From Demequina sp. (lineage in GTDB: Bacteria; Actinomycetota; Actinomycetes; Actinomycetales; Demequinaceae): 64,000 nt of DNA. The stretch lies in assembly GCA_030148645.1 (NCBI GenBank), contig JASBTB010000014.1:22166-86165 (forward strand), given 5' to 3'. Positions 3,508-45,962 of the stretch are shown here, piece by piece. The notes beneath the pieces were generated by a model. That model saw only the letters and a list, made by a program, of their open reading frames with translations, did not search any database and had not been told where the DNA came from. The position numbers were made by a program, and so were the translations under genes. The number at the start of each line of letters is the position of its first letter. Position 1 is the first letter of the stretch.

Positions 3508-3911
3508 CCCACGGCGAGGTGCCCCGTAGGCAGCGACCGGCACTTGTGGTCTTCACGCAGACCACACTGCTACTTGAGTCGCTCGCGACCTTCTTCGCTA
3601 TGCTCGTCACGTGGGGCCTTGGTCGCGCAAGCGTGGTCGATGTGTCCACCGGGGCGGTATGGGTGGCCGGATCTGCGCTCGCCGCCGCCTTCGCCTTCGC
3701 CTCGGGTCGAGCCAACACACGATGGGGCCGGATTCTGGGTTGGGTCCTGCATATCCCCCTCGTCGCGGGAGGGCTGTGGGTACCCGCGATCGCGTTCGTG
3801 GGCCTCATGTTCTTAGGGCTCTATGCGCTCGGCGTGCGGCTCGGTGCGCGGATCGACAAGGAACGGGCCCAGCACGCCGCTGGCGACGGCGTGCAGGGAG
3901 GAACGACGTGA
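3504..3911 (+). CDS. DUF4233 membrane protein
   Basis: A 135-residue protein with about four hydrophobic segments and a short basic/acidic tail. It belongs to the actinobacterial DUF4233 family, which is habitually found between folC and ndk, as here. Function is unknown. The ATG overlaps the folC stop codon (ATGA) and its own stop overlaps the next gene's GTG (GTGA), so folC, this gene and the next form one coupled unit. Confidence 0.8.
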   Translation: MTHGEVPRRQRPALVVFTQTTLLLESLATFFAMLVTWGLGRASVVDVSTGAVWVAGSALAAAFAFASGRANTRWGRILGWVLHIPLVAGGLWVPAIAFVGLMFLGLYALGVRLGARIDKERAQHAAGDGVQGGTT

Positions 3912-35022: not shown

Positions 35023-35069
35023 TGCGGGAAAGTTGATATTACCTGTACGCAACGCTCCACAGTTCACGA

Positions 35070-35075
35070 TATACT
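35070..35075 (+). promoter_or_regulatory. -10 element (TATACT) before the capsid gene
   Basis: TATACT lies about 150 bp before the capsid start in the element's left end (35023-35226). No good -35 is seen. The leader contains a short GCCGG/CCGGC hairpin. Confidence 0.35.
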
Positions 35076-35226
35076 TGAACCAAGGACGAAGCCCAGAGGG
35101 CAAGTCACACACCGTCAGAGGCGGTGGACAGCCGGCCAGACCGGCATGTGCCAGCGGCACAGTTCACAGCAACCGGCCCGCGCTATCAGCGCAGTTGGCC
35201 ACGCCACCCCCTCTGGAGGTACCGCC

Positions 35227-36303
35227 ATGACGCGCGGAATCATGTCTGCATCGGATGTCCCCTCGACCACAATCGACGGCGAAGACATCAACACCATCTG
35301 GGCCGAATTCCAGGCCACGCTTGACCTCGCGAACGAGCACCGTTCTGCGATCGCCGAGCTCTTCACCTACACGACCACACTCGAGTCCGACCTCGTCGCT
35401 CAGATGAGCACTGAGGATGACTTCGAGGAAGCCTCAGAATTCGGTGTCCCGACCTCGATCAACCAGAACTTCGAGAAGCTGCGTATCGGCTTCCCGCTGA
35501 GCTGGTTCGACAAGGCCACCCGCTTCACGTGGAAGTTCCTCAGGGACGCCACCTCCGAGCAAGTGCGCACAGTCCACTCCCAGGCGCTCGAGGCTGACAA
35601 CCGCCTCGTGTTCCGTGGCGTGATGAACGCGCTCCTCGGTGGCGTCTCCCGCCAGAACGAGAAGGGGACTGCGGTCTACCCGCTGTGGAACGCGGACTCC
35701 GTTGTGCCGCCAGCCTTCGCGGGCAACACGTTCGCGGGAACGCACACCCACTACCTGACCACCAATTCCGCCAACATCGACGGCGAGGACATCAAGGACC
35801 TCATCACGCACATCACCCACCACGGCTACGGGACCAACCCTGGCGAGCGTGTGATTGTGCTTGCCAACCCTGCACAGACCGAGGACATTCGCGGCTTGCG
35901 CGTCGCGGATGGGTCGCCCTTCGACTTCATCACGTCTGACGGTGCCCCGGCGTACCTCACGACTGAGTCGTTGGTCGGTGAGCGTCCTCCGTCGACGTTT
36001 GAGGGGCTCAAGGTCATCGGCAGCTTCGGAGATGCGTGGGTGGTCGAGGACCACTTCGTGCCGTCTGGCTACGTGATCGCGCTCGCGACCGCTGGGCGCA
36101 ACTCGCCCAGCAACCCCCTCGCATTCCGCGAGCACATTCGACCTGAGTACTCGGGCCTGCGCCAGATCCCTGGATCGAACGCGCAGTACCCGCTCGCCCA
36201 GGCCTACTACTCGCGGGGTTTCGGGGTCGGCGTACGCCACCGTGGAGCCGCGGCGGTGATGCAGGTGACTGTGAGCACCACGTACACGGCTCCGACCATC
36301 TAG
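35227..36303 (+). CDS. HK97-fold-like major capsid protein
   Basis: A 358-residue protein resembling actinophage and prophage major capsid proteins. It has an acidic helical N-terminus, a middle region likely to be the E-loop and P-domain (QNFEKLRIGFPLSWFDKATRF), and a C-terminal PxY-type A-domain ending RGFGVGVRHRGAAAVMQV, which I recognise from capsid annotations. GGAGG lies 8 nt before ATG 35227, and that ATG overlaps the stop of the fused comM frame. No scaffold, protease or portal gene adjoins. Assignment is by motif resemblance, not by structure; encapsulin-like shell proteins are the main alternative. Confidence 0.62.
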   Translation: MTRGIMSASDVPSTTIDGEDINTIWAEFQATLDLANEHRSAIAELFTYTTTLESDLVAQMSTEDDFEEASEFGVPTSINQNFEKLRIGFPLSWFDKATRFTWKFLRDATSEQVRTVHSQALEADNRLVFRGVMNALLGGVSRQNEKGTAVYPLWNADSVVPPAFAGNTFAGTHTHYLTTNSANIDGEDIKDLITHITHHGYGTNPGERVIVLANPAQTEDIRGLRVADGSPFDFITSDGAPAYLTTESLVGERPPSTFEGLKVIGSFGDAWVVEDHFVPSGYVIALATAGRNSPSNPLAFREHIRPEYSGLRQIPGSNAQYPLAQAYYSRGFGVGVRHRGAAAVMQVTVSTTYTAPTI

Positions 36304-36307
36304 GACT

Positions 36308-36347
36308 CCGAGGGCGCCGAGCTTTGGTTGGGGTTCGGCGCCCTCGG
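36308..36347 (+). terminator. 13-bp hairpin after the capsid gene
   Basis: CCGAGGGCGCCGA (36308-36320) pairs with its exact complement (36335-36347) around a 14-nt loop, 5 bp after the capsid stop. A terminator or mRNA-stabilising stem is likely; no strong U-run follows. Confidence 0.6.
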
Positions 36348-36394
36348 TACATCTCAAACCAACCACCCAACCACCAACCAAGGAGAGTTCCATC

Positions 36395-36901
36395 ATGAGT
36401 GCAAGCCAGCAAGCAGATCAGGTATTAGCCGCAATGGGCCACGCCCAGCGCCTCGCATGGGTCAACGCGATCCTCCACGAGGACGAGCGGATCAGTGAGG
36501 CCATCCTCAACTCATCCCGCGGTCAGGGAGTGGACCCGCACGAAGTGACAGGACGTGCAGACCTCGTAGAGCTCGTGGTCGTGCGCGCCTTCGAGCCGAC
36601 CATCGACCCAGAATCCGGGGCGGTCATTCCTGGACCCACTGCCCACATGACCGACATGGTCACACCGGTCGATCAGGTCGTCATCCAGCCCATCGGGTGG
36701 TGCTTCAACCACTCAGTCTTTGACGCACTTCTCGCTGAAGACATCGAGGATGCCGAGTTTCAGCTGGTTCCGATCAAGACGCTCTGGGTGCCCTCGGGTG
36801 CAATCCTCGTGCAGTTCAGCCTGTGCCACTCCTGCGCTGATCGTCTTGAGGCTCAGTACGGCACGCTCGACTGGAGGCCGATCGGTCATGGCACGGTGTG
36901 A
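36395..36901 (+). CDS. Element protein of unknown function
   Basis: A 168-residue soluble protein, acidic, with alternating helix and strand-like stretches (QADQVLAAMGHAQRLAWVNAIL; HSVFDALLAEDIEDAEFQLVP). AAGGAGAG precedes ATG 36395, an excellent ribosome-binding site. I do not recognise it. Its place between capsid and the Cys/His protein suggests a structural or packaging accessory role, which is only context. Its end overlaps the next gene by 14 nt. Confidence 0.65.
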   Translation: MSASQQADQVLAAMGHAQRLAWVNAILHEDERISEAILNSSRGQGVDPHEVTGRADLVELVVVRAFEPTIDPESGAVIPGPTAHMTDMVTPVDQVVIQPIGWCFNHSVFDALLAEDIEDAEFQLVPIKTLWVPSGAILVQFSLCHSCADRLEAQYGTLDWRPIGHGTV

Positions 36902-37538
36902 GGAAACCGTATCGACACCGAACAGTCCCAACTTTGGGAAGCAGTGTCAACGACTCGCCATGCATGGAACGCAAAGGTGCTTCGTCCACAGTGACCGCAC
37001 CAACCTGCCCGCGAAAGTAGAAATCGGCCGGATCGATCGACCGCGGGTTCAGTGCTCCGCGACCAAGCGCAGCGGGGAGCGGTGTCGAAACTACGCGATT
37101 CATGGCTCGACCGTCTGCACGCGTCACGGAGGGAATCTTCCCGGCGTGAAGAACGCGGCGAGGCAACGGCTGCTCAATCTGGTGAGTCCAGCACTCGCAG
37201 AGCTTCAACGCATCATCGACAGCTCTACGACATCTGATGCGGATCGGCTCAAGGCGATTCAGTTGGTGCTGGACCGCACGGGTTACCACGCACGGACTGA
37301 GCTCACGATTGATGCAGAACTCAAGCCGTGGGAGGCCCTGACTGGCGGTGAGATCGTTCGGGACCTTCCCGACGACCCGAACCTGCCAATCATTGATGCA
37401 GAGGTGGTTTATGACGACGACGAGCCCGAGGACGATGGCACGCCTCGCGCGATCGAACAACTAGCCGACGTCTTGCCGATCTCGGCAGGGCCGAAGCGGT
37501 CCAAGTCGTCAGCTCAACCGCCGCTCCACCTGAGGTAG
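36888..37538 (+). CDS. Protein with two Cys/His motifs, possible small terminase subunit
   Basis: A 216-residue protein. The first 85 residues hold two similar zinc-binding-like units, each Cys...Cys-x(8)-Cys-x(2)-His (KQCQRLAMHGTQRCFVHS and ERCRNYAIHGSTVCTRHGG). These are followed by GVKNAARQRLLNLVSPALAELQRIID, a helical region seen in phage proteins that are often annotated as small terminase subunits, and an acidic tail. The start at ATG 36888 (GGAGG 11 nt upstream) makes it overlap the upstream gene; the ORF-track start would add 56 residues of another frame. A DNA-binding packaging role is plausible but not shown. Confidence 0.55.
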   Translation: MARCEETVSTPNSPNFGKQCQRLAMHGTQRCFVHSDRTNLPAKVEIGRIDRPRVQCSATKRSGERCRNYAIHGSTVCTRHGGNLPGVKNAARQRLLNLVSPALAELQRIIDSSTTSDADRLKAIQLVLDRTGYHARTELTIDAELKPWEALTGGEIVRDLPDDPNLPIIDAEVVYDDDEPEDDGTPRAIEQLADVLPISAGPKRSKSSAQPPLHLR

Positions 37539-37541
37539 CTA

Positions 37542-37579
37542 GCGACGCTGACGGGGACCGCCGGCCCCGTCAGCGTCGC
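37542..37579 (+). terminator. Strong terminator-like hairpin
   Basis: GCGACGCTGACGGGG (37542-37556) pairs with its complement (37565-37579) with an 8-nt loop, then GCAGTTCTCTTT. A 15-bp stem and T-rich follow-up make it the best rho-independent terminator in the element, closing the capsid operon. Confidence 0.75.
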
Positions 37580-37583
37580 GCAG

Positions 37584-37629
37584 TTCTCTTTACACATTCT
37601 GTAGAGAATCTTGAACATCACGCTATAAT
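37584..37629 (+). promoter_or_regulatory. Palindrome and consensus -10 (TATAAT) before the XRE-like gene
   Basis: TTCTCT (37584-37589) and AGAGAA (37603-37608) form a palindrome extended by ACA/TGT inside, and TATAAT lies at 37624-37629. No good -35 is present, so the palindrome may bind an activator or repressor. The 200-nt leader to ATG 37830 contains a long-range pairing CTCCCT..GGGACC with GGTCCC..AGGGAG. Confidence 0.5.
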
Positions 37630-37829
37630 TTTCATGTAAGTCAAATCACTCCCGCTCCCTGTGGGACCTAAGAGAAAGCAACCCGCCAGAATCAACCCCG
37701 ACAGCGACCGGGGTCCCGCAAGGGAGAATGACCGCTCTTCGCAACGACAGGTTCGCGTTCGATGGACATCAGATGCCGGAGGCTCTTTGAGCCCCCACAG
37801 AGGCACGGCGGTGTCTGGAGAACCATCCA

Positions 37830-38111
37830 ATGTCGCGAACCCAGGCGCCAAGGCGCCCAAACAAGTACGGTGTCCAGCCGCTCCGTAAGGAACTAGCACG
37901 CCAGCGCTGGACTGTTGCCGCTGCCGCTCGACAGTTGGGCGTCGAGTATCCGCAGCTCTACAACACGGTCATCGGCCGCATCACGCCCACGATCCACCTC
38001 CGCAACGCGCTACCCACGCTGCTCGATGTGCCGCTGGAGAAGCTCTTCACGGTCGAGGCGCTCAAGGCCAGGCCACGGACGCAACGCGCTCGCCGTAAGG
38101 CTGGTGAGTGA
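37830..38111 (+). CDS. XRE/Cro-like helix-turn-helix protein
   Basis: A 93-residue protein whose middle reads as a lambda-repressor-like helix-turn-helix (RKELARQRWTVAAAARQLGVEYPQLYNTVIG) followed by a linker and basic tail. The CxxN-like recognition helix is short. It most likely controls the replication operon beginning here, and perhaps the palindrome at 37584. Its stop overlaps the next small ORF. Confidence 0.6.
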   Translation: MSRTQAPRRPNKYGVQPLRKELARQRWTVAAAARQLGVEYPQLYNTVIGRITPTIHLRNALPTLLDVPLEKLFTVEALKARPRTQRARRKAGE

Positions 38112-38259
38112 CGTGGCAAACACCGAGCAACCCGAGTGGTTGCGAGAGATGTACCGCGAGGCGGCACGAGAGGCGACCAAGGGCGTCGTTGTGCCTGACT
38201 CCGTCATCGACCGCGCATTCGCTTTCGTACGAGCAACGGAGGCGCGCTGTGACGACTAG
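38104..38259 (+). CDS. Small element protein, 51 residues
   Basis: A GTG-started ORF (38104, or 38113) that overlaps the XRE-like gene and, at its end, the primase start. The helical sequence EWLREMYREAAREATKGV and the coupling on both sides make it a likely real small gene. It is below the ORF-track threshold with this start. Function unknown. Confidence 0.5.
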   Translation: MSDVANTEQPEWLREMYREAAREATKGVVVPDSVIDRAFAFVRATEARCDD

Positions 38260-40219
38260 CGAAAATGACGAGGCCCCCCGCACCGCGGAGGGCCTCACCA
38301 AGGGTGAACAAGCAGATTCAGACGTTTTCGATTATGCACTGGAAATCGCCGTTGCGCGTGGCTGGAAATTGTTTCCTTGCCACTCGATTACGCGCGGCGA
38401 GTGCACGTGCTCGAAGGGTGCGGATTGCCCCCATGCTGGCAAGCACCCGCGGACACTCAACGGCGTGAAGGACGCGTCGGCCGATCAAGAGACCATCGCG
38501 ATGTGGCGCGAGATCTACCCGGATGCCAACTGGGCTCTCGCGTGTGGTGCTGGTTCTGGGGTGATGGTCGTTGACGTTGACCGTCGTGGCGGCATCGACG
38601 GCTTCGACTCGCTCGACTTGCTTGCACTTGAGCGCGGGGGGCTGGAAGCACTCACGGGCGGTGGTGGACTGCACGTCTTCGTGGCGTATGAGGCAGGGTT
38701 CAAGAACCACAATCCCCTGCTGCCGGGCATCGACTTCAAGACAGACGGTGGCTACGTCATCCTGCCGCCGAGTCGTCACAAGAGCGGAAGCTCGTACCAG
38801 TGGCACACCCTCAATGAGCCAGTGTCCGTCTCTCCTGAGCTGCGCGGCTATCTCACACGGCCCAAGGAGCCGGCACTGTCGCGTCAAGGTGCGTCGCTCA
38901 TGGACCCCGTCCCTGAGGGCGGCCGCAATGACGCCCTGATACGGAATCTCGGCATCTGGCGTCGAAAGCTCGATGATGACAGGCCAGCGGTAGAGCACCT
39001 TGCGTGGGGCTGGGGGAGAAGCGTCGGCCTGGATGACCAGGAGATCGCTCGGACCATCGAAAGTGCCTGGCGCTTGCCTCACGTCGACCTGGCGATCTCG
39101 TGGCCTCTGGCGAGCCCTGAGGAAGTCGATCAGTTCGAGCGCATGGTTGGGGAGCGGCTGATAAGGCACCGCGTCGAACGCGAGGCGAAGCAGCGCTTCG
39201 AGATTGAGTCACGCCCTGAGGCTCCTGGCTTCGACGTGGCAACGCTCGGTGAGGTGCTGGCTCGCGCTGATGAGTCAGCCTGGCGGATTGATCGGCTCAT
39301 GCCGGCGGACGCCAGCACGCTCGTCGTCGCCCAGCACAAGACAGGCAAGACGACGCTCATGCTCAACCTGGTGAGGTCACTTCTCACGGGGTCTGCATTC
39401 CTCGGTGAACTAGACGTTGACCCGGTGGAGCAGAAGGTGGCCATGCTCAATCACGAGGTGTCCGGTGGCCAGATCGCACAGTGGGCAGACGAGGCCGGCG
39501 TCCCTCATGACCGATTCCTGCTGGTCAACCTGAGAGACAGGCGCAACCCGTTCGCTCACGCTGACGATCGGGCAGCGCTCGCGGCTCACCTCCGTGACGC
39601 CGGTGTCGAGACGCTCATCGTGGACCCGTTCGGTCGTGCCTTCAGCGGTCAGAACCAGGACAGCGCGTCAGAGGTTGGCGCCTGGCTTGCGACGCTGGAC
39701 GAGTTCGCTCGTGCTGACGTGGGCGCTCGTGACGTGATCCTGACCGCTCACGCTGGCTGGGAGGGGGAGCGCACTCGTGGCTCCACTGCCCTCAATGACT
39801 GGCCTGACGCGATCTGGACCATGACGAAGAACGAGCGCTCAGGGGAGCGCCACTTCAAGGCTGACGGTCGTGACGTGAGTCTCGACAAGTCTCCCCTTGA
39901 GTGGCACGAGGGACGGCAGCTGAAACTGCTTGACGCTGATGCTCGCCGCTCTCAAGCGGTGTTCGTGACGCAGACCCGCATGCAGCAAGAGATTCTTGCG
40001 GTCGTCAAGGAGTCGCCTGGCTGCTCTCGAAGGGGGATTGAGAAGTGCGTGGGTGGTAACTCTGCCCAACTCCGCCAGGCTATCGACTCCCTCGTGAAGC
40101 TCGGATGGATAGAAGACAAGGGCACGAAGGCTGGCTCTCAGTTCTTCGCTGTCGATCGTCCCACCGGATCAGAGGGAATCACTACCCCTACTGACCCTCC
40201 AAAGATGATGTACGGCTGA
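38249..40219 (+). CDS. Bifunctional primase-polymerase with RecA-like ATPase
   Basis: A 656-residue replication protein. The N-terminal prim-pol domain has ARGWKLFPCHS, a Cys-rich insert (GECTCSKGADCPHAGKHP), the acidic pair VMVVDVDRRGG, the GGGGLHVFVAYE box and GYVILPPSRH. From about residue 340 a RecA/AAA ATPase follows, with Walker A AQHKTGKTTLML and Walker B TLIVDPFGRAF. The C-terminus is a winged helix (GCSRRGIEKCVGGNSAQLRQAI). GGAGG lies 7 nt before GTG 38249; the ORF-track start is 47 codons upstream. Such proteins initiate replication of plasmids and satellites, and the iteron region is directly downstream. Confidence 0.85.
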   Translation: MTTSENDEAPRTAEGLTKGEQADSDVFDYALEIAVARGWKLFPCHSITRGECTCSKGADCPHAGKHPRTLNGVKDASADQETIAMWREIYPDANWALACGAGSGVMVVDVDRRGGIDGFDSLDLLALERGGLEALTGGGGLHVFVAYEAGFKNHNPLLPGIDFKTDGGYVILPPSRHKSGSSYQWHTLNEPVSVSPELRGYLTRPKEPALSRQGASLMDPVPEGGRNDALIRNLGIWRRKLDDDRPAVEHLAWGWGRSVGLDDQEIARTIESAWRLPHVDLAISWPLASPEEVDQFERMVGERLIRHRVEREAKQRFEIESRPEAPGFDVATLGEVLARADESAWRIDRLMPADASTLVVAQHKTGKTTLMLNLVRSLLTGSAFLGELDVDPVEQKVAMLNHEVSGGQIAQWADEAGVPHDRFLLVNLRDRRNPFAHADDRAALAAHLRDAGVETLIVDPFGRAFSGQNQDSASEVGAWLATLDEFARADVGARDVILTAHAGWEGERTRGSTALNDWPDAIWTMTKNERSGERHFKADGRDVSLDKSPLEWHEGRQLKLLDADARRSQAVFVTQTRMQQEILAVVKESPGCSRRGIEKCVGGNSAQLRQAIDSLVKLGWIEDKGTKAGSQFFAVDRPTGSEGITTPTDPPKMMYG

Positions 40220-40221
40220 GT

Positions 40222-40332
40222 GCGTCCACCGCGTCCAAGGTGCGTCCAGGAGCCTTGGACGCAGGCTGCACGAAAGCGCGTCCACTGCGTCCACCCCCTT
40301 TAGGGGGGACGCAGGGACGCAGCGTGGGACGC
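40222..40332 (+). repeat. GCGTCC iteron cluster with hairpins: candidate replication origin
   Basis: GCGTCC occurs five times on the plus strand (40222, 40231, 40242, 40278, 40287) and four times on the minus strand (40257, 40307, 40315, 40327) within 111 bp. Two hairpins arise: GCGTCCAAGG/CCTTGGACGC (40231-40240 with 40253-40262) and a TGCGTCC...GGACGCA stem around CCCCTTTAGGGG. Directly after the primase gene, this is what an iteron-type origin would look like. The following 40340-40560 is strikingly G-rich and T-rich on the plus strand and shows no gene. Confidence 0.6.
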
Positions 40333-40635
40333 ACTTGGCTTGGTGGCGGGGGTTGGGGGTGTGACTGGTGGGGACCTGGGAGGGGGTGTGAGCGTGGTCG
40401 GCTGGCTGGGGGTGACCTGCAGGGGTCAACGGGACCTGCACGCATCCGCAGGTCGGCTCCGTTTCGCTGGCACACATCCAGGAGCCGCACGGTCTCCTGT
40501 GGGCTCACGGGAGGCTTCCAGAGGCTAGTTACCAGGGCCTGAGCGTTTCGTGAGTCCTGTGGAGCCCGTATGGCTCCGCAGCTACTCCTAGAGGATCGGT
40601 GTCATAACGGCCGAAATCGCGACACTGTTGATCGC

Positions 40636-41304
40636 ATGGAAGCGGTGATCTACCTGCGGGTATCAACACAGGGCCAAGCGGTCGATGGGTACGGCCTTGA
40701 CGTCCAAGAGCAGGCATGTAGGGCATACAGCGAGTCGAGCGGGTTCAGCGTCGCCGAGGTGTTCAGGGACGAGGCGGTATCTGGCACGCTGCCTGCCCAT
40801 GAGCGGCCTGGTCTGATGGATGCGCTCGGCATGTTGAAGGACGGGGACGCAGACGTGCTGATCGTTGCCCGCCTGGACCGGCTCGCGCGCCAGCTCACCA
40901 CGCAGGAGGTCATCCTCGCCGAGGTGTGGAAGGACGGTGCAGAGGTCCACACTGCTGAAAGCGGGAAGGTCTTCAGGGACGACCCAGACGACCCGATGCG
41001 AACTGCCATGCGCCAGATGGCCGGCGTCTTCGCCGAGTTGGACCGTGCCATGACGGTCAAGCGCCTGCGTGACGGTAGGCGCGCGAAGGAGGCAAAGGGT
41101 GGGAAGGCAAATGGAAGCTACCCGTATGGCTTCGCCAAGGAGGGACCGATCCCTGCTGAGCTGGAGGTCATGCGCGACGCCGCTGCCCAGAAACGTAAGG
41201 GACGCTCCTGGGAAGCGATCGCCGCAGACCTCAACGCGCGTCAGATCACGCAGCGCAACGGGAAGCCGTGGACGCGGCAGAACCTCGCGAGGGTGATGAG
41301 GTAG
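40636..41304 (+). CDS. Small serine recombinase
   Basis: A 222-residue protein with a resolvase-type catalytic domain (AVIYLRVSTQGQ with the active Ser, VARLDRLARQ) and a short DNA-binding recombinase region (GSYPYGFAKEG, WEAIAADLNARQITQRNGKPWT). It lacks the long coiled coil and zinc ribbon of large integrases, so it may resolve multimers, act in replication or regulate excision. ATG 40636 gives the canonical N-terminus; the ORF-track start is 22 codons upstream. No clear ribosome-binding site is seen. Confidence 0.82.
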   Translation: MEAVIYLRVSTQGQAVDGYGLDVQEQACRAYSESSGFSVAEVFRDEAVSGTLPAHERPGLMDALGMLKDGDADVLIVARLDRLARQLTTQEVILAEVWKDGAEVHTAESGKVFRDDPDDPMRTAMRQMAGVFAELDRAMTVKRLRDGRRAKEAKGGKANGSYPYGFAKEGPIPAELEVMRDAAAQKRKGRSWEAIAADLNARQITQRNGKPWTRQNLARVMR

Positions 41305-41306
41305 TG

Positions 41307-41753
41307 CTAGACGGCGTCTGGGCGGATGTCCATCCCGCCTGCCTCCGCCTGAGTGAGGGAACCCGATCCGAGTTCGTTGCCCTCTGAGTCCTCGAAGACC
41401 CAACGAACCACGTGCGGTTCCTCGATGAGGGTGGCCATGTCTGCGACCATCCGGCCAGGAGCATTGGCGCGCAGGCGATCATCGAACGCCTGGTTGACCA
41501 TACGAGGGTTGCCCCCGTCGATGCGGTTGTAGTCCCACCAGTCCAGCGTCTTGCGGAGTGCTGCGACCTGCTCCGGTGCGGGGTTGTCGAAGTCATCGTT
41601 GGCGAGCTTCAGCGCCAGCCGGCGGAGCCTCTCGGCGCTCGCGACCTGGAGTTCACCCGCTGGCGTGAAGTGGTGGGCACCGTTGAGGTGTGGCTGCATT
41701 GGCGCCTGTCGCATCTGGCCGTTGGCTGGTGCGTTGATGTCGTTCTCTTCCAT
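41307..41753 (-). CDS. Element protein of unknown function (minus strand)
   Basis: A 148-residue soluble protein with AGGAGGAAGAC before ATG 41753, a very good ribosome-binding site. It has a helical core (ASAERLRRLALKLANDDFDNPAPEQVAALRKTLDWWDYNRI) and a C-terminal part WVFEDSEGNELGSGSLTQ. I do not recognise it. It is convergent with the small recombinase (3-bp gap) and divergent from the HNH gene. Confidence 0.65.
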   Translation of the reverse strand: MEENDINAPANGQMRQAPMQPHLNGAHHFTPAGELQVASAERLRRLALKLANDDFDNPAPEQVAALRKTLDWWDYNRIDGGNPRMVNQAFDDRLRANAPGRMVADMATLIEEPHVVRWVFEDSEGNELGSGSLTQAEAGGMDIRPDAV

Positions 41754-41955
41754 GTCTTCCTCCTACTACGTTGCGGAGCAGTGCCAGGAAGTGGCCGACG
41801 TCAGGTTCATTGGACAGCAAGAGACGCCGGCCAGGTTTGTCATCCTGGCACAGCGCCTCTATTAGGACCTGCGCCCGGGATGCAGCGGCCATTGGCCGGG
41901 TCTCAACAGACGACGCAGGGTTGCCGTCCCAAGTGACGTTACATGAGACGAGGAA

Positions 41956-41982
41956 GGGGAGCAAGGGGAGCAAGGGGAGCAA
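41956..41982 (+). repeat. Three tandem copies of GGGGAGCAA
   Basis: Perfect 9-bp tandem repeats (41956-41964, 41965-41973, 41974-41982) lie in the 275-bp gap before the HNH gene (41754-42028). Being a multiple of three, they code GSKGSKGSK in the ORF-track frame, but that part is probably untranslated. The gap otherwise holds a short GCCAGG/CCTGGC hairpin. Confidence 0.7.
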
Positions 41983-42028
41983 GACTCGGCCAGGCCTCCA
42001 GCGTGGCGCACTCGCCACGTCTACAGAC

Positions 42029-43252
42029 ATGAATAGCCTGGTCTCGACCGGCGGCTCTGTCGGACAGGGGAAGGTGAGGCCCGCTTTGCATATCGGGTTC
42101 CAGCGATCGGGTGGTCGCGGCGAGTACGAGGTCGTCGGTAGCCACTCGGGCTACACGGCGATCAGCCTTGAGGGCTGGCGGTTCTTCCTGCGCTGGCCCG
42201 ACGGCATCGTTCGCGAGACTGGGCTTGAACTCGAGCCGGCCGACAGTGGCAAACCCCGACTCCGCTCCACGTGGTCACCCCAATTCCAGATCGGCCGCAT
42301 GGTCGCTGCAATGCTGCTCCTTCCTGACCCGCGCCGTGAGTACGCCCAAACGAACGACTCGTTGCCAGTCGCCCGTGCAAAGGGCTACGTGCTGTCGCGC
42401 ATCGGGTTCGGTCCTGACACCGAGTTCACCGGCGTGACGGACCAGGTCACTATCGATGCGTCGTTTGTGACGCTCGCGAACCGAGCAGGTGACGACTCGA
42501 TCGGTATCGCGCAGCGGTGGTTCAGGGTCCAAGGGGTTTACAACGCGGTGCACCTCCTGCCTCCGTCACTCGCTTCACTCGTCACCGAGCATCGCGACTA
42601 CCTGGCATCTGGAAGGCCGATCAAGGCAGACCTCACGAGCATCGTCGCGTCCCTGATCAAGGAGCTGGCCGGTACTGTCGGCACGACCTTCGACGGCGAC
42701 CCGCTGCCGATGCTCGAACAGATGCTCAACTTGCAGGTGTTCGCGACACCCAATCTCCCGCCGCCGGACGAAATCGGCGAGGAGGACCCAGAGATTGCGG
42801 TGAGGGCCGCGTCCGAGTACCGCATGGCGAAGACGCGCGGTCCGGGCGCTGTGACGTTCCGCAAGGACGTGCGTGCGGCGTATAACCACCGGTGCCTTTT
42901 CTGTGGCGGGCGCTTTGGCGACATCCCCGACGTCGTGTCTGGTGTGGATGCCGCCCACATCCTGGCTTGGAGCAAGTACAACCTGGACGTCGTCATCAAT
43001 GGGCTCAGCCTGTGCAAACTTCACCACTGGGCTTTTGACGCAGCGCTAATCCTGCCCGTCTACAAGGGCGGCGACCTCTATGTGTCTTTCACCGAACTGA
43101 CCGTCCCGATGGACCAGCACTCGAAGGGCCTGCTGGGCATCGATGGCGCACCAGTGGACCCCGTGTTCCTGCCCGCGTCGAAGGCCCAGTGGCCGAGCGA
43201 AAAGTACCTCGAGCACCTCTACGCGGACTTGGCCATCTCGTTCACAGCCTGA
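42029..43252 (+). CDS. HNH endonuclease, probable restriction enzyme
   Basis: A 407-residue protein with an N-terminal region of unknown fold and a C-terminal HNH domain: CLFCGGRFGD, VDAAHILAWSKYN, NGLSLCKLHHWAFD, a pattern of the HNH_2 type common in restriction enzymes. The neighbouring m5C methyltransferase, convergent and overlapping by 34 bp, makes a type II restriction-modification pair likely. ATG 42029 is chosen; the longer ORF adds 86 residues of repeat-derived low-complexity sequence. Site specificity cannot be read. Confidence 0.75.
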   Translation: MNSLVSTGGSVGQGKVRPALHIGFQRSGGRGEYEVVGSHSGYTAISLEGWRFFLRWPDGIVRETGLELEPADSGKPRLRSTWSPQFQIGRMVAAMLLLPDPRREYAQTNDSLPVARAKGYVLSRIGFGPDTEFTGVTDQVTIDASFVTLANRAGDDSIGIAQRWFRVQGVYNAVHLLPPSLASLVTEHRDYLASGRPIKADLTSIVASLIKELAGTVGTTFDGDPLPMLEQMLNLQVFATPNLPPPDEIGEEDPEIAVRAASEYRMAKTRGPGAVTFRKDVRAAYNHRCLFCGGRFGDIPDVVSGVDAAHILAWSKYNLDVVINGLSLCKLHHWAFDAALILPVYKGGDLYVSFTELTVPMDQHSKGLLGIDGAPVDPVFLPASKAQWPSEKYLEHLYADLAISFTA

Positions 43253-44256
43253 TCCTCGATCTGGTCCGCGAGGTCCGCGAACTGGGCGACGAGGCGCTCG
43301 CCGATCCACTGGACGACGGGTACAGATACCGCGTTGCCACATGCGTGATAGCGGGCAGAATCGAGAGTATCGACGTTCGTAATTTCCTTGATCGGAAGAG
43401 TCCAGCCATCAGGGAATCCTTGGAGACGTTCCGCTTCTAAGGGCGTCAAGCGGCGGACCTGCCCCTCTGGATACGACACATAGTTTCGAGACCAGTCGGT
43501 ACCCGTGTGGCGCGCTGACTCGGCATAGAGGCAGTGGGCCAGCTTCTTCACGAATCCTTGCTCAGGATTTCCAACGCTGATCGCAAAGGGGGAAACAGGT
43601 TTCGTCCCATTCGGTCGGCTCTTCTCAGAATCCCTGTCGCCGCATTCGGGCTCAAAAAGTACCGACGCGGCGGCCTCTGCTCCTCCAAGAGCTCCGACAA
43701 TGAAGACTCGACTTCGGCTTTGGGGGACGCCGAAGTGTCGACTGTCAAGTACTCGCCACGCGACGCCATACCCGAGGTCGGCCAGCGTCCGAACGATGAC
43801 TCCGAAATCTCGTCCATCGTGGGAAGAGAGGAGTGCCGCAACGTTTTCGAGGACGACAATTTTGGGGAGACGCGCTTCAATGAGTCGAGCAAAGTCGTAG
43901 AAGAGTCCTGATTGGCTTCCTCGGAGCCCACTGCGTGGACCCATTCGGGCGAGGCTGACGTCTTGACAGGGGAAGCCTCCGACCCAGATTTCCGCTTCGG
44001 GGATGTCATCAGCGTTTACCTCCGTGATGTCTTCGACTCGTGGAACATCGGGCCAGTGCTTCGCCAGGATGTCGAGGCAGAAGTCCTTCTTCTCGCACTG
44101 CCAGACGGTCTCCATACCAGCATTCTCGAAACCGAGATCGAACCCGCCAATGCCAGCGAAGAAACTCGCGACGCGCAGGCGGGAGGGTCCTGGGTTTGTC
44201 TTGATCGCACGCACGACCTTGCGCTTGCCGTCGCGCGCAGGTTGTTCGACACTCAC
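43219..44256 (-). CDS. C5-cytosine DNA methyltransferase
   Basis: A 345-residue m5C methyltransferase. Motif I is RVASFFAGIGGFDLGFENAG, motif IV is WVGGFPCQDVSLAR with the catalytic Cys, motif VI is VVLENVAALL, motif VIII QSRSRVFIVG, and motifs IX-X RLTPLEAERLQGFPDGW and CGNAVSVPV. The variable region between VIII and IX is about 80 residues. GTG 44256 with GGAGG 8 nt upstream is the better start; GTG 44277 adds seven residues. It protects the element and host from the HNH nuclease. A LexA box lies about 165 bp upstream. Confidence 0.88.
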   Translation of the reverse strand: MSVEQPARDGKRKVVRAIKTNPGPSRLRVASFFAGIGGFDLGFENAGMETVWQCEKKDFCLDILAKHWPDVPRVEDITEVNADDIPEAEIWVGGFPCQDVSLARMGPRSGLRGSQSGLFYDFARLIEARLPKIVVLENVAALLSSHDGRDFGVIVRTLADLGYGVAWRVLDSRHFGVPQSRSRVFIVGALGGAEAAASVLFEPECGDRDSEKSRPNGTKPVSPFAISVGNPEQGFVKKLAHCLYAESARHTGTDWSRNYVSYPEGQVRRLTPLEAERLQGFPDGWTLPIKEITNVDTLDSARYHACGNAVSVPVVQWIGERLVAQFADLADQIEDQAVNEMAKSA

Positions 44257-44397
44257 CTCGCGGGCCTCCGTGAGCACAATCGACCATCCTTACATGTAGC
44301 GAAGACACCTCGCGGGTGTCCGATCTCAACCTTATGCGTACGGCTTCGGGGTCCTGCGCGCGGCACGCCCGCGCCGCTCCATTCTCCGACACTGCCC

Positions 44398-44403
44398 AGG
44401 GTA
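44398..44403 (-). promoter_or_regulatory. -10-like element (TACCCT) upstream of the methyltransferase
   Basis: On the minus strand TACCCT lies 17 bp after a -35 position that falls inside the LexA box. It would give the methyltransferase a leader of about 135 nt. Confidence 0.35.
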
Positions 44404-44419
44404 TCGAATCCGACGCTAT

Positions 44420-44435
44420 TCGAACAGGTGTTCGA
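44420..44435 (-). promoter_or_regulatory. LexA (SOS) box
   Basis: TCGAACACCTGTTCGA (minus strand) matches the actinobacterial LexA palindrome TCGAAC-n4-GTTCGA at all 12 fixed bases. It lies 15 bp after the integrase stop and upstream of the methyltransferase. Confidence 0.7.
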
Positions 44436-44449
44436 TGGGAGTGTTGCGC

Positions 44450-45919
44450 TTACTCGCTTCGCGGCACGATCGCGACACGCCTCTTGAGTGCCTCCATCTG
44501 TCCCGCCTCGAACCGCTCGCTGTGTTGCTGCTCAGACTCGCCGCGCCGCCTGGGTAGCCCTGTGGGAAGGTCGCTGGGCCAGCGTGACACCACGACCCGC
44601 TCAATGAAGAGGCGTGCGAAGTTCCGCTTGCGCTCGGCCGTCCAGCCGTCCATCTGGAGCCCCTGGGACACGTCCTGGTCGAACATGGACGCTCCGAGCA
44701 GCGAAGCGCTACGCTGCTCGATTTCGTCAGCCCGTGCGTCGATCTGGGCGACCCGAGCGCGTGTGTCTGCCTTGTCGATGAGGCCGTCCACGTGAGCATC
44801 GAGCACGCGCGCGCGTTTGTCGGCCAATGTCGCCCGCTCGGCATCGAGCCGCGCGATCTCGGCTTCTTCCTTCGACCCTCGCTCGGCGCTTCGCAGGCTC
44901 CACCTGGGAGAGGACGTCAGCGCCTCTTCGATGTAGGCGAAGACGTACGCCTCCAACCGCGTGTAGTCGATGCTGATCGCACCGCAACCGCCTGTGTGGC
45001 GCGCGCATCGCAAACCTGGCCGACTGCCGCGCTTCGCCTCACGCTTGTAGCTGGTCAGGCTCTGGCCGCACTCGCCGCAGACAACGAGGCCACCGCCGAG
45101 GGAGTAGCGACCGCCCTTGACGCCGGGGGAGATGGTCGTCCAGCGGGTGGGGTCTTCGAACATGGACCGGAGGCGGTCAAATGACGGTTCATCGATGATG
45201 GGCTCCCACTTCACCTCGCCGAGCTTGTTCTTCCCGATGATCGCGGGATTGCGGAGGATGGGGCGTAGGCCCGTCACGCGCCAGATCTTGCCTTTCCGGG
45301 TGATGACCCCTCGGCGTTGCCAGTCCTTCACGATGCCAGAGACTGTGTCACCCCTGAGGAGGCGCTCGACGGCTTCGCGTACACGCTCGACCTCTGGCGG
45401 GTTTGGCACCAAGCGCTTGCCATCGACCTTGTACCCGTAGGGCACTGTCCCACCGTGGTAGAGACCTGCCTGCTCGCGGGCTTCACCTGCTCGCTTGATA
45501 CGAGCCGACATGTGGTCGGCCTCGTTACGCGCGACTGATGCCTTGATCCGGGCGAAGAGTCGGCCGGCGTCAGTGCGAAGGTCCGCTTCACCATTGGCGG
45601 TGACGACGTGGAGCCCATGTTCCTCAGCGGCATCGATCCAGTCCTCAAGTTGTCGGGGCTGGCGTGTCAGTCGGTCAAGGTCGTAGCAAACAAGCGTGGT
45701 GAATTGGCCAGCGCCGTACGCTTCGACCATCTGGTCATACTGGGGGCGTGATGCGTTCTTGCGCCAGGCGGAAGAGTCATTGTCTACGTACTCGCGGACG
45801 ACTTCCCAGCCGTGCCGTTCGGCGAGTGCTCGGCAGTCTTCGAGTTGGCGCGTGACGCCGTTTCGCTCATCCGTTCTGTCGGATGAGATGCGGGCGTAGA
45901 TCGCCGCCTTTGTCGTCAT
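44450..45919 (-). CDS. Large serine integrase
   Basis: A 489-residue large serine recombinase. The catalytic domain has AAIYARISSDRTDERNGV with the active Ser and YDLDRLTRQPRQLEDW. The recombinase domain follows (YGYKVDGKRLVPNPPEVERVREAVERLL), then a zinc-ribbon domain (CGECGQSLTSYKREAKRG...CARHTGGCG) and a coiled coil (EEAEIARLDAERATLADKRARVL). GGAGG 5 nt before ATG 45919 favours the second of two ATGs. attR lies 43 bp from its start, the usual integrase-att arrangement. It integrates the element at comM; excision needs a directionality factor, not identified here. Confidence 0.93.
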   Translation of the reverse strand: MTTKAAIYARISSDRTDERNGVTRQLEDCRALAERHGWEVVREYVDNDSSAWRKNASRPQYDQMVEAYGAGQFTTLVCYDLDRLTRQPRQLEDWIDAAEEHGLHVVTANGEADLRTDAGRLFARIKASVARNEADHMSARIKRAGEAREQAGLYHGGTVPYGYKVDGKRLVPNPPEVERVREAVERLLRGDTVSGIVKDWQRRGVITRKGKIWRVTGLRPILRNPAIIGKNKLGEVKWEPIIDEPSFDRLRSMFEDPTRWTTISPGVKGGRYSLGGGLVVCGECGQSLTSYKREAKRGSRPGLRCARHTGGCGAISIDYTRLEAYVFAYIEEALTSSPRWSLRSAERGSKEEAEIARLDAERATLADKRARVLDAHVDGLIDKADTRARVAQIDARADEIEQRSASLLGASMFDQDVSQGLQMDGWTAERKRNFARLFIERVVVSRWPSDLPTGLPRRRGESEQQHSERFEAGQMEALKRRVAIVPRSE

Positions 45920-45962
45920 CATGGCCTCCGTCTAGTCAGTGTGTCATATTCACTCTGTCGTA

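Follow-up and report, generated by a model that had tools for sequence, protein, structure and literature searches.

The palindrome found ahead of a C5-cytosine methylase gene of Demequina sp. is probably a working LexA operator, and the methylase probably belongs to a mobile type II restriction-modification (R-M) cassette. Through this operator DNA damage would raise the level of the methylase, not that of the nuclease, and the cell would be guarded against self-restriction. The proposal is grounded on comparisons of the sequence with those of related loci.

The 16-mer TCGAACAGGTGTTCGA, located at 44420-44435 of the window (the whole 64-kb stretch of DNA analysed), agrees with the actinobacterial LexA box at all 12 fixed bases, as a preceding sequence-only reading had claimed, and is the sole site with 0-1 mismatch to the box in the window. 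Sites with up to 2 mismatches are 8, against 3.9 expected from shuffles. The chance of finding the perfect box, set by the same reading at about 0.4 percent per 64 kb, is of the right order, as an estimate from base composition alone comes to about 0.2-0.4 percent. The intergenic placement is confirmed as well. The order of elements on the minus strand is serine integrase (45922-44450), LexA box, C5 methylase; the gap hosting the box extends from the integrase stop at 44450 to the methylase start, at 44256 or 44277, and the box lies 163 bp 5' of the methylase start, which leaves a leader of 163 bp. The interval originally singled out (44398-44435) includes, besides the 16-mer, the minus-strand hexamer TACCCT at 44403-44398, taken as part of a promoter with a -35 region overlapping the box. 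The hexamer is there, and is found ahead of the box in L104 and L115 also, but both the -35 match and the -10 are weak by eye, and the promoter is only putative. Because of these weak signals, and of the 163-bp leader, a second, LexA-independent promoter is possible for the window methylase. The methylase leaders of the window (44386-44403, minus strand) and of L100 have the sequence TAC(C/T)CTGG(G)CAGTGTCGG in common. L100 lacks a LexA box, yet carries this sequence upstream of the methylase; it is possibly a second operator, perhaps involved in methylase autoregulation.

Table 1. Positions of the features discussed, in the window unless a locus is named
Feature	Position	Strand	Remarks
LexA (SOS) box	44420..44435		TCGAACAGGTGTTCGA / TCGAACACCTGTTCGA; exact pattern match; kept in relatives
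Possible -10 element TACCCT	44398..44403	-	Weak; from sequence
C5-cytosine DNA methyltransferase, 345 aa	43219..44256	-	GTG start, GGAGG 8 nt upstream (44265-44269); alternative start 44277
HNH nuclease, likely cognate restriction enzyme	42032..43252	+	Convergent with methylase; HNH_2 9e-8
Integrated element, 10.9 kb	35026..45962		In comM at LFLDEAPEF codons; boundaries within few bases
Large serine integrase	44450..45922	-	Resolvase + Recombinase + Zn ribbon; phrog_95 6e-102
Major capsid protein	35146..36303	+	phrog_3990 2.5e-111; ORF start as listed; the gene may begin further downstream
Primase-polymerase with AAA_25 domain	38108..40219	+	Prim-Pol 2.6e-29, AAA_25 2.3e-26
Second, small serine recombinase	40570..41304	+	Resolvase 1.7e-32
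NaeI-like boxed loci	L308 1519-1639; L379, L380, L383, L385, L386, L394, L403		Box 37-112 bp 5' of methylase

The motif is the host organism's own SOS operator, because the same motif is found at recA, uvrA, imuA'-imuB, an Rv2578c-like gene and lexA. Perfect matches are 6 in the 2.21-Mb draft genome from which the window derives, and a reversed control pattern has 0 perfect matches in the same genome. Four of the five matches other than the window box lie directly 5' of SOS genes (imuA'-imuB, recA, the Rv2578c-like radical-SAM gene and uvrA), and two boxes, each with 1 mismatch, are located upstream of the host lexA. The fifth resides inside the pafB coding sequence (L002 1501-1516, G000 C42), and is probably there by chance. 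The gene bearing this internal palindrome, pafB, is itself a DNA-damage regulator. In two loci of the same genus, serine integrases have integrated into the Rv2578c-like radical-SAM gene, an SOS gene that is thereby disrupted. The insertion point is a few hundred bases downstream of the SOS box of the gene (L029, 1184-1199; L030, 2402-2417), which shares the spacer AGGT/ACCT with the window box. The two loci had been considered as serine-integrase elements carrying the same box, and were discarded, the box being that of the host Rv2578c-like gene.

The methylase had been regarded as a protective enzyme of the integrated element. That it is a methylase is correct. The protein matches Pfam DNA_methylase (6e-64), TIGR00675 dcm and M.HhaI, and the C5 catalytic motifs are present, FPCQD, ENV and QSRxR being invariant. 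What had been overlooked is the convergent HNH gene, with which the methylase gene would form an R-M pair; the likely purpose is thereby no longer to protect the element, but to balance methylase versus nuclease. Residues H309, N323 and H332 of the HNH protein are invariant in 28 homologues, and its structure is predicted with a pLDDT of 86. The best structural matches of the HNH domain, albeit weak, are the restriction enzymes TagI and EcoKMcrA, and these nearest solved HNH domains belong to modification-dependent enzymes; the N-terminal part of the model found no match among solved structures. An HNH homologue adjoins the methylase gene in 5 viral contigs and in almost every close relative, the relatives ranging from Actinobacteria to Planctomycetes. 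Because the two genes are found together across phyla, they probably constitute a type II R-M system, in which the HNH protein would restrict DNA.

Relatives of the methylase were gathered from 84,980 genomes, and 43 genomes of the window genus were included for comparison. The closest named relative is found in a Demequina lutea assembly (L098). Within a clade of 10 actinobacterial methylases defined by the tree, a box (0-1 mismatch, at most 350 bp upstream) precedes the methylase in 7 members, versus 0.045 expected from the same loci by a Poisson estimate which ignores shared ancestry. The carriers are the window, L098 (Demequina lutea), L101 (Mycolicibacterium iranicum), L103, L104 (Mycobacterium), L105, L115 (Rhodococcoides), the last being apparently the same locus as L063; no box with up to 2 mismatches was found in the three other members, L099, L100 and L102. 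Additional matches with 0-1 mismatch in the same loci (232 kb) are only 3, and all fall where the methylase gene encodes GFDLGFE. With the catalytic domain as reference, the window and L098 boxes both lie near -248, and those of L101, L103, L104 and L115 near -110. The sequences on either side of the box have diverged, and the box itself has not; a position kept in such surroundings points to selection. The SOS control of the methylase envisaged in the sequence-only reading is thus strongly supported by comparison, since most clade members are boxed, at matched positions within subgroups, in spite of different flanks and mobile neighbours. The L103 box overlaps a perfect TATAAT. Further sampling of Mycobacteriales and of the window's own order yielded one new relative, L260, which is boxless, and no close methylase relatives were found in plasmid and phage collections.

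The neighbours of the box vary. They are a serine integrase in the window, a tyrosine integrase in L063/L115, vsr in L101, L103, L104 and L105, ordinary chromosomal genes and a Doc-like gene in L098. Because it is kept beside different integrases, or none, the box is, on comparative grounds, a component of the R-M cassette and not of the element. The vsr gene, involved in the repair of deaminated 5mC, adjoins the R-M cassette in divergent orientation in L101, L103 and L104, and in tandem in L102 and L105. Where vsr is divergent, the LexA box could control vsr also.

The element hosting the cassette in the window interrupts comM, and its boundaries were set by aligning the two comM halves to the intact comM of L056. 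It encodes a capsid, a terminase-like protein, a primase and a serine integrase, and lacks portal and tail genes, in agreement with a phiRv1-like gene content. Copies of the small serine recombinase, 57-70% identical, are found near related integrases. A different element resides in L057 at the same comM codons; its serine integrase is 35% identical to that of the window, and both elements feature primase-polymerase and terminase-like genes. By gene content, the comM elements look like a phiRv1-like family of capsid-bearing satellites targeting comM. Elements of the phiRv1/phiRv2 type are small (about 10 kb) capsid-bearing integrative elements, equipped as the window element with capsid, terminase-like protein, primase and integrase. 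The window element, a candidate member by gene content, differs because it carries an R-M cassette. The palindrome was also considered as attachment site, and rejected, since the element ends in comM at ~35026 and ~45962, 1.5 kb from the box. Similarly, the box is not a fixture of the element family, since related integrases and the comM element of L057 lack it.

Control of the methylase by the box could serve the transfer of the element rather than the safety of the host. According to this hypothesis, helper phages would be induced by SOS, the extra methylase would mark the element DNA before packaging, and the marked DNA would then enter a new host endowed with the same R-M system. The capsid, terminase-like protein and integrase of the window element, reminiscent of a phage satellite, fit the hypothesis. 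Boxed cassettes devoid of capsid genes, however, are found beside a tyrosine integrase (L063/L115), beside vsr (L101, L103, L104, L105) and, in L098, amid ordinary chromosomal genes, contexts that a packaging purpose does not predict, which makes a role in transfer unlikely. The location of the box next to the integrase gene might rather hint at SOS control of the integrase, or of element excision, as the sequence-only reading had also suggested. This claim is not supported, and we regard it as very improbable. On the strand in question the integrase gene comes first, ending 15 bp before the box, and the integrase promoter has no box; the element has no other site with 0-1 mismatch; related integrases, in comM (L057) or elsewhere, lack such a box, and boxes persist in loci with a different kind of integrase or none, so that the box tracks the R-M cassette, not the integrases.

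A different target is offered by vsr, which directs very short patch repair of deaminated 5-methylcytosine. The box might regulate vsr, the methylase being co-regulated merely by position, and vsr might have been lost in the window, leaving the box as a relic. The proximity of vsr to the methylase, divergent or in tandem, in L101-L105, and the inducibility by DNA damage of a Vsr-like gene in Caulobacter (PMC12907096), go in this direction. The possibility seems quite improbable, since in the tandem arrangement of L105 the box lies between vsr and methylase, hence downstream of vsr, and the window, L098 and L115 keep the box with no vsr adjacent. As for a chance palindrome in a GC-rich genome, perfect matches can occur in coding DNA, as in pafB; still, clade-wide conservation at matched positions, and the scarcity of matches elsewhere in the same loci, make this hardly credible.

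If the box is a LexA operator of the methylase, as we favour, LexA bound to it would lower methylase transcription to a maintenance level in the undamaged cell. Upon activation of RecA, LexA would be cleaved and the methylase derepressed. In none of these loci did a LexA box turn up near the HNH gene. Because it lacks a box, the HNH gene would not be derepressed, and the methylase-to-nuclease ratio should rise under damage. The rise would occur when unmodified DNA is likely to be present, as in repair synthesis and replication restart, or when the nuclease has cut the chromosome. A negative feedback against self-restriction may thus operate, in which a break induces SOS, more methylase is made, and no more cutting takes place. 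Since nuclease cuts in unmodified DNA trigger SOS, protection from self-restriction is the most economical purpose. By analogy, the feedback loop gains support from M. smegmatis, in which depleting an unrelated R-M methylase induces the SOS regulon via the partner nuclease (PMC7647400). LexA binding, methylase induction, nuclease specificity and the purpose itself are what we infer from the comparisons.

Boxes are not confined to this methylase. Among random C5 methylases from 118 Actinomycetes genomes, intended as a control, 5 of 88 have a box upstream, versus 0.5 expected, and three of the five belong to one other subfamily, associated in L308 with a NaeI-family nuclease. The box is found upstream of the methylase in 7 of 30 loci of this NaeI-like subfamily (3 boxes are perfect), versus 0.29 expected, 3 of the 7 being the same loci that prompted the search of the subfamily; the Poisson expectations ignore shared ancestry in all groups. 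N6/N4 methylases have 0 boxes in 113 kb around 30 loci. Judged from the random-C5 and NaeI-like counts, versus none at N6/N4 loci, SOS boxes before R-M C5 methylases are a wider pattern, at least in Actinobacteria. L388 (G152) also has a perfect LexA box, at ~3555-3570, roughly 1 kb past the 3' end of its NaeI-like methylase gene.

Outside Actinobacteria, the LexA motif proper to each group was sought upstream of members of the same methylase family. The alphaproteobacterial motif GTTCN7GTTC was identified upstream of the methylase 4 times versus 0.43 expected, a small and post hoc count. It lies directly before the methylase in L117 and L140, is upstream in L177 too, and falls in coding sequence in L173. 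The beta/gammaproteobacterial motif CTGTN8ACAG occurs 3 times in 6.3 kb upstream (L144, L155, L157) versus 0 in 200 kb elsewhere, again a small and post hoc comparison. Chance may account for the L173 match, as for a box found at a start codon in another locus, L262, and a divergent AAA gene may be what the L157 box controls. In L140 the box is flanked by the methylase gene and by an HNH-type nuclease gene in divergent orientation. Control of the methylase by the host SOS response might be a general safety device of C5-type R-M systems, repeatedly evolved across bacteria; we entertain the generalization tentatively, placing it slightly short of an even chance. According to this view, unrelated cassettes would each have acquired the LexA operator of their own host lineage, and damage or self-inflicted breaks would raise the antidote methylase.

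It has long been asked how type II R-M systems spare the host during damage and repair, and once transferred. Type II systems are regulated by cassette-encoded C proteins and by methylase autorepression; cassette-encoded regulators and, for type I enzymes, degradation of the nuclease are the known answers. A LexA operator on the methylase, if true, would couple the antidote directly to the very alarm set off by the nuclease, and enable a mobile cassette to exploit a circuit of its host. A full-text literature search, with subscription papers and preprints mostly outside its scope, returned no account of an R-M methylase controlled by LexA, and an earlier description is possible. The SOS and LexA passages of a review on R-M regulation describe no LexA control of R-M genes (PMC3874152).

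The window cassette shares with M.HhaI/M.HaeIII-like type II systems the pairing of a C5 methylase with a nuclease, and the problem of balancing the two. The operator is the same described in the S. venezuelae SOS regulon (tCGAAC-N4-GNNCGa; PMC9380542), and the host targets of the actinobacterial regulon, recA, uvrA, imuA'-imuB and lexA, are those found in the window genome; in contrast to what is proposed for the window, no methyltransferase or restriction gene is mentioned in the paper on the S. venezuelae LexA regulon (PMC9380542). NaeI-type systems (L308 and relatives) likewise have a LexA box upstream of a C5 methylase, located in L308 between the divergent NaeI-family nuclease and methylase genes, but the nuclease is unrelated, and the methylase is of a different subfamily. 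Control of type II systems by C proteins or methylase autorepression (PMC3874152) differs in that the regulator of the window cassette would be the host LexA, responsive to damage. In restriction alleviation, ClpXP removes HsdR of type I enzymes (PMC4231737, PMC11109961). DNA damage lowers self-restriction, as proposed for the window cassette, but alleviation works by degrading the nuclease of a type I system, whereas transcription of a type II methylase would be the target here. Type I restriction alleviation, C-protein control and the damage-inducible Vsr-like gene of Caulobacter (PMC12907096) are the nearest known counterparts of the arrangement described.
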